A stretch of 54,991 bases of DNA. It comes from Actinomycetota bacterium. Its GTDB lineage: Bacteria > Actinomycetota > Geothermincolia > Geothermincolales > RBG-13-55-18. The notes under the pieces were generated by a model that was not told the origin of the DNA, ran no database searches, and saw nothing but the letters and a program-made list of their open reading frames with translations. The DNA lies in contig JABLXL010000022.1 of NCBI GenBank assembly GCA_013178005.1, positions 1 to 54,991 of the forward strand, in the 5' to 3' direction. This document shows, piece after piece, positions 41,674 through 50,060 of this stretch. The position numbers and the translations under genes are program-made. The stretch's first letter is position 1, and each line of letters starts with the position of its first letter.

Positions 41674-41854
41674 CATTTTACCGAGGCCAGCGGGAAATCG
41701 ATCACCCTCGATGTCGCCGACGCGAGAAGAGTGACGGAGGCGCGGTCACGGAGTCGTGGCGGATTGGAAGACCGCCCGGAGCGGCTGGGGTGAAAGCATG
41801 ATGGCCTGCGTATAAAATGGCATCAGCTTGCGGGAAGTAAAAGGAGGAAAGGAC

Positions 41855-42379
41855 ATGGCCGAAAAGGGGAAAGAGGAGTTGACGGAAGAGGCGAGGCGCC
41901 TGGCGAGCGACTACGAGAAGAGGTGCACGGGTTGCGCGCAGTCGGTGGTGGCCGGGCTGATTGACGCCCTGGGCCTGGAGGACGCCGGCGAGGGCGTGTT
42001 CAGGGCGGCGAGCGGGCTGGCGGACGGGATCGGGCTCACGGGCGACGGTTCCTGCGGCGCGCTCACCGGCGGCTGCATGGTCATCGGGCTCCTCTTCGGG
42101 CGCGAGCGCAAGGACCACCAGGACATGATGAAGCCCATGCGGTCCTACCTCATGTGCAAGGAACTGCACGGGGACTTCATCGAGCGCTACGGGAGTTGCC
42201 GCTGCTTCGACATCCAGGAGAAGCTCATGGGCCGCACCTTCAACATGTACGATCCCGAGCAGCTCAAGGAGGCCTTTTCCTCGGGCATGATGGAGCACTG
42301 CTCGGGGGTGGTGGGAAACGCGGCCGCCAAGGCGGCGGAGCTCATCCTCGCACAGCAGGAGAGTGAATCGCAGGCCTAA
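41855..42379 (+). CDS. C_GCAxxG_C_C family protein (redox/metal)
   Basis: 174 aa, ATG at 41855 preceded by AAAGGAGGAAAGGAC. Family Cys pattern in order: CTGCAQSVV near residue 25, GDGSCGALTGGCMVIGLLFG near 65-85, RSYLMCKEL, SCRCFDIQEKLMGR and EHCSGVVGNAA. This family is common in anaerobes with Fe-S or corrinoid enzymes and may bind a metal centre; the activity is unknown. No signal peptide is seen, so it is cytoplasmic. It stands alone, between a tandem repeat and a tRNA-Ser region. Confidence 0.88.
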   Translation: MAEKGKEELTEEARRLASDYEKRCTGCAQSVVAGLIDALGLEDAGEGVFRAASGLADGIGLTGDGSCGALTGGCMVIGLLFGRERKDHQDMMKPMRSYLMCKELHGDFIERYGSCRCFDIQEKLMGRTFNMYDPEQLKEAFSSGMMEHCSGVVGNAAAKAAELILAQQESESQA

Positions 42380-44662: not shown

Positions 44663-45574
44663 ATGCGGACCCGCAGGATAACGCAGGTTCTGGGCGTTCT
44701 GGCCATCAACCCTTACTTCGTGTATCTCTCCTCACGCCTCACCTACCAGGGAGGGTTGAAGGGAGTCTGCGTGCCGGCGCTTAATTGTTACGCCTGCCCG
44801 CTCGCCGTTTTCTCCTGTCCCATAGGCAGTCTCCAGCATTCCTTCACCCTCATGTCTCCCAGGATCAAGGGATCGCTCTCCCAGGCGTTCGCCTCGCTCT
44901 TCTACGTCCTCGGCTCGGTAGGGCTGGTGGGCGCGGTGGTGGGCAGGATGCCCTGCGGTTGGATCTGCCCCTTCGGTTTCCTCCAGGAGCTGCTCTACAA
45001 GATACCCACTCCCAAGCTGCGGTTGCCCTCGTGGGCGCGCTGGGGACGGTACGCCTTTCTCGCGGGACTGGTGGCGCTCGTGCCCTTCCTGACCGCGACG
45101 AGCTGGTTCTCCCGCCTCTGCCCCGCGGGCGCCCTGGAGGGAGGCATCCCCCTTAAATTGGTCCCGCCCACGACGCCGCTTCCGCCCTCGGGCTGGTTCT
45201 TCTGGATGAAGATGGTAATCCTCGCCGTTTTCCTGATCTGGTTCGTGTTCTCCCGGCGCCCTTTCTGCCGCACCGTCTGCCCTCTCGGCGCCATACTCGG
45301 GATATGCAACCGTTTCAGCCTCTACCGCATGGCTGTGGACGATTCATCCTGCACCTCCTGCGGCCTTTGCCGGGAGGTCTGCCCCGTGGATATCGACGTG
45401 CGGGATGATCCCAATTCCCCCGACTGCGTGCGTTGCCTGCAGTGCAAGAAGGCTTGCCCCAACGGAGCCGTGACCTCGGGGTTCAAGTCCCAGGGAGAGG
45501 CGTATCGCGCGGTGAAAAGGATGCCGGCCGTCAGTTCCGCAAAATTCCGGCGCAAATCATGCTCGCTTCGCTGA
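44663..45574 (+). CDS. Membrane 4Fe-4S ferredoxin-type protein (NapH/YccM-like)
   Basis: 303 aa, ATG at 44663. About five membrane helices carry Cys motifs: NCYACPLAVFSCPIG, GRMPCGWICPFGFLQELLYK and RPFCRTVCPLGA (the NapH-type CxxxCP pattern). The C-terminal region has two 4Fe-4S motifs: CTSCGLCREVCPVDI and CVRCLQCKKACPNGA. It moves electrons across or along the membrane. It forms a likely operon with the CXXC peptide upstream and converges with a thioredoxin-like gene 96 bases away. The electron acceptor is unknown; the thioredoxin-like lipoprotein is an attractive candidate. Confidence 0.9.
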   Translation: MRTRRITQVLGVLAINPYFVYLSSRLTYQGGLKGVCVPALNCYACPLAVFSCPIGSLQHSFTLMSPRIKGSLSQAFASLFYVLGSVGLVGAVVGRMPCGWICPFGFLQELLYKIPTPKLRLPSWARWGRYAFLAGLVALVPFLTATSWFSRLCPAGALEGGIPLKLVPPTTPLPPSGWFFWMKMVILAVFLIWFVFSRRPFCRTVCPLGAILGICNRFSLYRMAVDDSSCTSCGLCREVCPVDIDVRDDPNSPDCVRCLQCKKACPNGAVTSGFKSQGEAYRAVKRMPAVSSAKFRRKSCSLR

Positions 45575-45670: not shown

Positions 45671-46063
45671 TCAAGACCCGGCTGCTTTCTCCATGGCCGA
45701 GCGCAACTCAGCCTTTTTGGGGGTTCCCACGAAGGTCTTGACTATGGAACCCGAGGCATCGAGAACCACGATGGTGGGGACGGCTTGAATGCCGTACTCG
45801 CGCGCCGTGGCGGTATCCCTGCTGGCGTCGATTTCTACGTACGGGATAACGTCTCCCATTTCCTTCACCAGGCCCTGCACCAGGGCTTTGGCCTCGGGGC
45901 AGGCGGGTCAAGTGGGGGTGGTGAAGAGGAGAACCTGGGCCTCACCTTTCCTCACGCCGCCGCCATTGGACTTACCCCCGCCGCTTTCGCCGCAACCCGC
46001 TGCCACCACTGCCATGATAAGGACAACCATGGCCAAGGCGGCGATCGATGATCGTCTGATCAT
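45671..46063 (-). CDS. Thioredoxin-like lipoprotein, probable selenoprotein (UxxC)
   Basis: 130 residues if TGA (45908-45910, codon 52) is read as selenocysteine. ATG at 46063 with GAGAGG upstream; signal peptide with lipobox VVAAGC (C24), Gly/Ser-rich linker, then VLLFTTPT-U-PACPEAKALV. The thioredoxin fold continues past the TGA in the same frame: VIPYVEIDASRDTATAREYG, IQAVPTIVVLDASG with the cis-Pro (VPT). The TGA stands exactly where the first Cys of CxxC belongs, and the second (C55) is kept. A hairpin with apical G-start loop lies 22-36 bases downstream (45886-45872), at a distance expected for a bacterial SECIS. The alternative is a nonsense mutation. It may belong to the SaoT-like group of thioredoxin-like selenoproteins. 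Confidence 0.8.
45872..45886 (-). promoter_or_regulatory. Candidate bacterial SECIS hairpin
   Basis: On the minus strand GCCCTG (45886-45881) pairs perfectly with CAGGGC (45877-45872) around the loop GTG. The loop begins 28 bases after the UGA and its first base is G, matching the general rule for bacterial SECIS elements (short stem-loop just after UGA with a G early in the apical loop). It is inside the coding frame. Confidence 0.6.
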
Positions 46064-48074: not shown

Positions 48075-48224
48075 TGGGAATGCATATCTGCCCAAGATCG
48101 TCGCTTGTGCCATCAGTATCCACCGGGAGGCAAGCTCTCCCGCGGGTTTTCGATATAACTCCCTTTCACAGGACCGGCACGCATATGGCCCATGGACTTT
48201 TCTCCTGGCAGAGGGGCGATTAGT

Positions 48225-50060
48225 ATGCAGGGAGGATATACCGGCAAGCTCATGGAGGTGGACCTCACAAAGGGCACTGCCTCCGTCGTCGGCTGCCCGG
48301 AGGGATACGCCGCGGACTACCTCGGAGGCTTCGGCGTCAACAACCGCCTTTTCCTGGATTATTCCCGGCCCGGCACGGATCCCCTCTCGCCGGAAAACCC
48401 GGTCATCCTCGGGGCGGGACCCCTGGTGGGCGCCCCGGTGCCGGGAGCTTCCAGGGTAATGGCCAACGCACGTTTGCCCTTAACGGGCGCGGTGGCCTCG
48501 GCGAGCGGAAGCATGGGCCTGGGCGCGCACATAAAATGGTCCGGCTTGGACCATATCGTTTTGCTAGGGAAGGCCCCACGCCCCACCCTGCTATACATTG
48601 ATGATGGAAGGGTTGAGCTACTGCCCGCTTCCTCCCTCTGGGGCAAGGGCATCCTAGAGACCACCCGTTCCTTGTGGGAGGCTTATCCAGGCGCCTCGGT
48701 GCTGGCCATCGGTCCCGCGGGAGAGAACCTGGTTCACCTCTCCCTGGCCATGATCGACGCCTGCGCCACCCTGGGGAGGGGGGGACTCGCGGCGGTTCTG
48801 GGCTCCAAGAACGTCAAGGCGCTGGTGGTCAGGGGATCGGGAGGGGTGAAGGTCGCGGACCCTCGGCGTCTGCGGGAGCTGATACGCGGCCTCCACGACC
48901 GGTTGTCGCGCTGGGAGATGCGCCAGGGGGCCTTGGAGCTGGGCATGATCGGGGCGTGGCCCATGTACGCGAGCCAGCTCCTCCCTTACGGCGCGGGCGA
49001 GGAGGAGCTGCGGGAGATGACCGAGCGTTTCGGCCCCGGCGCGTACCTGAAGCTGAAGAAGCGCCGGATAGCCTGCCCGTCCTGCTTTCTGGGGGACAAG
49101 GACGAGCTCATCCTCCCGACCACGGGCGAGAGCGTCTATTCCACCTCCTTCCTCAACGCCGCCATCATCGGCTGCGCCCTGGGGATGAACGACGCCGAGG
49201 AGGCGGCATCGACGCTGGCCCTCCTGGACGACCTGGGCCTGGACTTCATGACCCTGAGCTGGCAGGCGGCCTACCTGCTGGAGCTACGGGAGCATGGCGT
49301 TCTCGCGCCGGAAGATGCCGAGGACATCCCCTTGAACAGGGGCGCGGGCATCCTGCGCGAGCTGGCAGTCCGGGTGTCGGAGCGGAAGGGAGAGATCGGC
49401 GAAGCGCTGGCGCGTGGATGGAGGGGCGCCTTCGAGCTTTTCGGGGAGGACACCAGGCGCTTCACCATGCTGGTGCGCGACCAGGATTGCCTGTACGATC
49501 CCCGCGTGAGCGGCCTTGGGACCATGGAGTTCGAGCAGATCGTATCGCCACGCGGCCCCACCTCGGCCAGCGCCGGCTCAGCAACTTATGTTCCTGGGCT
49601 TCCCATGGAGAACCTGCGCCGCCTCACCCAGAGGATGGGCGCGGACGAGGAAGCACTGGAACGCATCTTCTCCTCCCCCTGGGGCATGAACGTGGGCAGG
49701 TTGACCCGCTATTCCGAGGACTGGTTCAGCCTCTTTTCCAGCCTGGGCATCTGCAACCGTTTCCAGATCAACCGCTTCTACCACGCGGGGCTGATCAGGG
49801 ATATACTGGCCGCGGTCACGGGGATGGAGCTCGAGACCGGGGAGATGATGCGCAAGGCCGCGGCGGGCTTCGAGCTCTACCGCGAGCTCGGAGAACGCGA
49901 AGGGCTGGGGCGGGAGAGGGACGTCCCTCCCGAAGCCTGGTTCGAAGAAGGCCCGCTGTGGGGAAGGGGCGGCAAGTTGAAGGACTACCTCGGAAACGAG
50001 TTAAACCGCGGGGACGTTTTCACCCTTTTGGACGATTACTACGACGAGAGGCAAAGGTAA
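48225..50060 (+). CDS. Aldehyde:ferredoxin oxidoreductase family (tungsten/molybdopterin)
   Basis: 611 aa from ATG 48225 (GAGGGG upstream); an in-frame ATG at 48192 is less likely. The N-domain reads GYTGKLMEVDLTKGTASVVG, YLGGFGVNNRLFLDY and RVMANARLPLTGAVASASGS, typical of the pterin-binding AOR_N. AOR_C follows. The [4Fe-4S] ligands are unusual: ACPSCFLGDKDEL keeps C-x2-C but has Asp where the third Cys is expected (C-x2-C-x3-D). The fourth Cys is retained in SLGICNRFQ. Asp ligation of a cluster is known in some ferredoxins; here it is inferred. It oxidises aldehydes or reduces acids with ferredoxin as partner; the substrate is unknown. Confidence 0.88.
   Translation: MQGGYTGKLMEVDLTKGTASVVGCPEGYAADYLGGFGVNNRLFLDYSRPGTDPLSPENPVILGAGPLVGAPVPGASRVMANARLPLTGAVASASGSMGLGAHIKWSGLDHIVLLGKAPRPTLLYIDDGRVELLPASSLWGKGILETTRSLWEAYPGASVLAIGPAGENLVHLSLAMIDACATLGRGGLAAVLGSKNVKALVVRGSGGVKVADPRRLRELIRGLHDRLSRWEMRQGALELGMIGAWPMYASQLLPYGAGEEELREMTERFGPGAYLKLKKRRIACPSCFLGDKDELILPTTGESVYSTSFLNAAIIGCALGMNDAEEAASTLALLDDLGLDFMTLSWQAAYLLELREHGVLAPEDAEDIPLNRGAGILRELAVRVSERKGEIGEALARGWRGAFELFGEDTRRFTMLVRDQDCLYDPRVSGLGTMEFEQIVSPRGPTSASAGSATYVPGLPMENLRRLTQRMGADEEALERIFSSPWGMNVGRLTRYSEDWFSLFSSLGICNRFQINRFYHAGLIRDILAAVTGMELETGEMMRKAAAGFELYRELGEREGLGRERDVPPEAWFEEGPLWGRGGKLKDYLGNELNRGDVFTLLDDYYDERQR

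Follow-up and report, generated by a model that had tools for sequence, protein, structure and literature searches.

The locus and its reading frame

The window, by which we mean the whole 54,991-nucleotide stretch of DNA analyzed here, carries on its minus strand a small gene (45671..46063, closing TGA included) that encodes 130 amino acids if it is read through an internal stop. The frame opens with an ATG at 46063 and continues to 45671, with an in-frame TGA at codon 52 (45908..45910) and a closing TGA at codon 131; since the closing stop is also TGA, UGA is not globally reassigned in this organism. Along that single frame lie a hydrophobic N-terminus, a lipobox (VAAGC), a Gly-rich linker, the active-site stretch FTTPT-U-PAC (U marking the TGA codon), and a cis-Pro motif (AVPT). 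The sequence-only reading of this DNA had described one continuous frame with a lipobox upstream of the TGA and a cis-Pro region downstream, and its coordinates, frame, and motifs are as we find them. For the lipoprotein assignment, a hydrophobic helix (residues 7-22) is followed by AAGC, in which Cys24 (codon 45992..45994) is the predicted site of lipidation; the lipobox call is based on the motif and the alignment. It is present in nearly all homologues, and in 18 of them Cys24 is invariant and Gly23 nearly so. On the plus strand, at 44663..45574 and thus convergent with the lipoprotein gene, is a gene for a NapH/MauN-like membrane 4Fe-4S protein with Fer4_5 and Fer4 domains, which by its adjacency is a candidate redox partner. 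Further genes nearby encode an aldehyde ferredoxin oxidoreductase family protein (48192-50060) and a C_GCAxxG_C_C redox protein (41828-42379), and these point to an anaerobic lifestyle.

A thioredoxin fold with the UGA at the first active-site position

The read-through protein scores 41.4 bits against the Pfam Thioredoxin family (PF00085), well above the cut-off of 23.5, and in a phmmer search of the PDB the thioredoxin 1fo5 ranks first, with codon 52 aligned to the first active-site cysteine, exactly where the sequence-only reading had put the TGA. The AlphaFold2 model has a pLDDT of about 95 across residues 41-130 and the order strand-helix-strand-helix-strand-strand-helix, and its best Foldseek matches are thioredoxins. 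The U52-P-A-C55 motif sits just before a helix (55-68) and Pro96 just before a strand (97-101), as a UxxC thioredoxin would have them; the resolving Cys55 (codon 45899..45901) and cis-Pro96 (codon 45776..45778) are both invariant among homologues. Thus, the earlier proposal of an extracellular, lipid-anchored UxxC thioredoxin stands as a prediction, with Pfam, PDB, and AlphaFold2 speaking for the fold and the near-universal lipobox for the anchor.

No NCBIfam family takes in the window protein above its own cut-off; the MJ0307 family thioredoxin model (TIGR00411) gives 71.8 bits against 92.75, and SaoT (NF040730) 15.7 against 65. A selenocysteine thioredoxin of PF00085 with a UxxC site is listed in a review of the prokaryotic selenoproteome (PMC13188914), and the window protein has in common with it the thioredoxin fold, selenocysteine (Sec) at the first position of CxxC, and a PF00085 score above the cut-off; the window protein also has a signal peptide and a lipobox. 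The best sequence relatives are MJ0307-type archaeal thioredoxins (TIGR00411; PDB 1fo5 and 1nho), which have a similar T-P-x-C-P-x-C context but are Cys thioredoxins without a signal peptide; relative to them, the signal and lipobox of the window protein are additions. SaoT is likewise a small thioredoxin-like UxxC selenoprotein, but the annotated neighbors in the window are not Sao-type transport genes. The DsbA-like, DsbG-like, and TlpA-like UGC Sec proteins (PMC13188914) are also thioredoxin-fold selenoproteins, of families that are usually exported, but they belong to other thioredoxin-fold subfamilies, none of which the window protein matches above cut-off. UxxC thioredoxins as such are known (PMC13188914, PMC9312934); the word "lipoprotein" is absent from both of these papers, and the lipid-anchored, class-wide family appears to be uncurated.

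Conservation of the TGA codon across the class

Among the 31 genomes of the class, a TGA is found at exactly codon 52 in 22, each a different species, and a Cys codon in 6, although one of the Cys rows (L036) is very divergent and of doubtful orthology and another (L084) also has a long branch. Within the order, the query finds a thioredoxin-like match in every genome, and in 15 of 18 the match contains exactly one TGA, at this same codon. No residue other than Cys or TGA occupies position 52 in the alignment, no homologue has a frame disabled elsewhere, and the tree calls for at least 4 changes between Sec and Cys. An alignment search of public contigs with nine group-1 rows identified relatives in Candidatus Solincola daggyaiensis, Candidatus Geothermincola primus, and Actinomycetota metagenome-assembled genomes, and we place the window's genome, that of an uncultured hot-spring bacterium, within or close to Candidatus Solincola in the Geothermincolales. 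A draw of 396 genomes from the phylum turned up the close family in no class but the window's own, and viral contigs and plasmids yielded distant thioredoxins only, of Cys type where the active site was read. Four other genomes of the class have additional thioredoxin-like frames that contain one in-frame TGA (G020:C50:8828-9196, G021:C83:5382-5735, G026:C34:4962-5261, and G029:C76:7321-7590), and these are possible further Sec thioredoxins.

Beyond the UGA, seven homologue pairs gave dN values of 0.09-0.19 and dS values of 0.43-0.98, and on these substitution rates the residues downstream of the UGA are evidently under purifying selection. For the three pairs drawn from the window's own genus, the 15 codons that directly follow the UGA have a lower dS than the remainder of the gene; the numbers are small, but an added constraint on the RNA would produce a difference in this direction. 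From this perspective, the notion of a pseudogene, in which an ordinary CxxC thioredoxin has suffered a nonsense mutation or a sequencing error, can be given almost no credence. It would account for a frame that is intact but for one stop, though not for the same codon being TGA in 22 species across genera and Cys elsewhere, with no further lesions, nor for a dN/dS well below 1 past the stop. The sequence-only reading had judged a chance nonsense mutation at this one residue unlikely, and the survey of the class bears it out.

A bSECIS-like hairpin that covaries

Hairpins were scored with the published criteria for the bacterial SECIS, coded by hand: a loop of 3-9 nt with a G at its first or second position, a stem of 4-16 bp, a spacing of 16-37 nt, and a free energy of -7.5 kcal/mol or lower (PMC13188914). 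The perfect 6-bp, GTG-loop hairpin that had been noted below the UGA lies at 45872..45886 on the minus strand (GCCCTG-GTG-CAGGGC), its stem set off from the UGA by 21 nt and its loop by 27 nt; loop, stem, spacing, and the -8.8 kcal/mol of the hairpin itself all fall within these limits. Against synonymous-codon randomization, this hairpin alone does not exceed chance (p about 0.2), and the minimum free energy fold of 51 nt of the window gene favors a different structure. Because single-gene significance under synonymous shuffling is weak for most copies, it is the set as a whole that carries the argument. Across the 22 Sec copies, the best hairpin conforming to the model, with one mismatch allowed, averages -8.6 kcal/mol versus -3.8 for synonymous-randomized sequences (combined p 3e-7, uncorrected for relatedness); in the six Cys copies, the values are -1.3 and -1.0 (p 0.73), and the hairpin is absent. 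In most Sec copies, a bSECIS-like hairpin with a loop containing G and U lies 23-27 nt below the UGA. There are weaker members of the set: two Sec copies have no good hairpin in the common registers (none at all in L031, one at a spacing of 19 in L083), and several more do not reach -7.5 kcal/mol or contain a mismatch.

Covariation was assessed in 15 Sec sequences that share one register. In this set 87.5% of cells pair, double-sided changes occur in 6 of the 8 pairs (17 cells), and none of 500 shuffles reaches the score; sliding the partner strand by 1-3 nt destroys the signal, with far lower scores. RNAalifold recovers the same helix independently, and in a second set of homologues the hairpin is displaced by about one codon, again with GTG in the loop. 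What is beyond chance, then, is the class-wide position of the TGA together with a hairpin that covaries, not the window hairpin by itself.

These results also bear on the possibility that the UGA is simply a stop, yielding a secreted lipopeptide of 51 residues with the downstream part unexpressed, or that it is occasionally read through with Trp or some other residue. UGA is a normal stop in this genome, and the gene's own end is TGA, but selection on the downstream domain, the restriction of the position to Cys or TGA, and the existence of full-length Cys homologues that have no hairpin all argue against this alternative, and we consider it exceedingly improbable.

Selenocysteine machinery and tRNAs

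The search that the sequence-only reading had proposed, made over the whole genome, finds selA, selB, selC (tRNA-Sec with a UCA anticodon), and selD, all within about 6 kb of one contig (C49). Across the class, every one of the 22 Sec genomes has selA, and none of the 4 genomes without selA (G002, G018, G027, and G030) has a TGA copy (Fisher p 0.004); the two of these with a readable homologue, G002 and G018, both have the Cys codon. tRNA-Sec was not found at the threshold used in one Sec genome, G029. The selD of the window's genome itself reads as a selenoprotein gene (SGUAAK; L017, around 1530): its in-frame TGA lies where selD usually has Sec, and a GGA-loop hairpin follows 17 nt past it. 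What looked like a second SelB, containing two TAG codons (L011), proved to be EF-Tu.

Opal-decoding tRNA-Cys of the selC* type, with a UCA anticodon, has been reported in Desulfobacterales (PMC7609411), which raises the question of whether UGA52 is read as cysteine rather than selenocysteine. The genome does have a second tRNA of the requisite shape, a tRNA-Sec-like tRNA-Cys, but its anticodon is GCA, not UCA. Two tRNA-Sec-family matches rise above the cut-off, and the one with UCA is the selC beside selA and selB. Considering also that the second SelB is only apparent and that the homologues readable in two selA-less genomes both carry a Cys codon, cysteine decoding seems highly unlikely, if a shade less so than the pseudogene and true-stop readings.

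The tRNA-Sec-shaped tRNA-Cys is an observation in its own right. It lies in the window's genome at G000:C33:22273-22362 on the minus strand (L002), with a GCA anticodon and T as the discriminator, and L132, L133, and L134 are alike; a canonical tRNA-Cys is also present (L160, 1470-1543). In the window's family, eight genomes have a second match to the tRNA-Sec family, the GCA anticodon having been checked in four. This tRNA is similar to the selC* tRNA-Cys described in Firmicutes, Thermodesulfobacteria, Nitrospirae, and Proteobacteria (PMC7609411), the range of which thus appears to extend to the Actinomycetota.

A predicted extracytoplasmic selenothioredoxin and its Fe-S neighbor

The homologue alignment, which places Cys or Sec precisely at codon 52 with no disabled frames, thus agrees with the earlier reading, and UGA52 is very probably a selenocysteine codon, the gene encoding a selenoprotein predicted to be an extracytoplasmic UPAC thioredoxin. 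The support is sequence-based, consisting of the frame, the fold family, the TGA position, the Sec machinery, the conserved and covarying hairpin, and purifying selection. From it we infer actual insertion of Sec, lipidation, the direction of the reaction, and a supply of electrons from the NapH-like protein, as follows. SelB with Sec-tRNA(Sec) would recognize the hairpin just downstream and read UGA52 as selenocysteine; the N-terminal signal would direct export of the product and Cys24 would receive the lipid, leaving a thiol-disulfide oxidoreductase of thioredoxin fold at work on the outer surface of the cytoplasmic membrane, with U52-P-A-C55 as its selenenylsulfide/selenol active site. It would most likely serve as a reductant, with electrons coming from the neighboring NapH-like Fe-S membrane protein.

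With such a protein, the Geothermincolia, a deep and mostly uncultured class of actinobacteria, would gain a conserved selenoprotein family that appears to be uncurated; it also points to the use of selenium outside the cell in these bacteria. The family offers a natural series of Sec/Cys replacements in which the SECIS hairpin is gained or lost. Annotation pipelines that halt at UGA will miss, truncate, or split the gene in two.

As for the Fe-S neighbor, the Sec lipoprotein gene and its counterparts are tail-to-tail with the NapH-like gene in all 10 Geothermincolales group-1 genomes (nine Sec and one Cys, L029), and the NapH-like gene is present in 29 of the 31 genomes of the class. For the lipoprotein gene of the window we found no operon partner, the flanking Fe-S gene being convergent and not co-transcribed. 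From gene adjacency alone, a redox partnership across the membrane is plausible, with the NapH-like protein possibly the electron donor of the Sec lipoprotein. A more specific model, in which the two form a transmembrane relay whose Fe-S clusters pass low-potential electrons and keep the extracytoplasmic selenothioredoxin reduced, is tentative and in our estimation rather doubtful; it would constitute a route other than CcdA/DsbD. In other families of the class, the NapH-like gene is found directly downstream, on the same strand, of a gene for a thioredoxin-fold lipoprotein from which both active-site cysteines have been lost; such Cys-less lipoproteins are encoded at L143 1198-1731, L144 1334-1804, L145 1127-1627, L146 1325-1855, and, on the reverse strand, L147 1509-1997. 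A second subgroup of the Sec lipoproteins, of WQPGU type, instead adjoins a moaA-like radical SAM gene (so named by sequence recognition) in several of the genomes examined.
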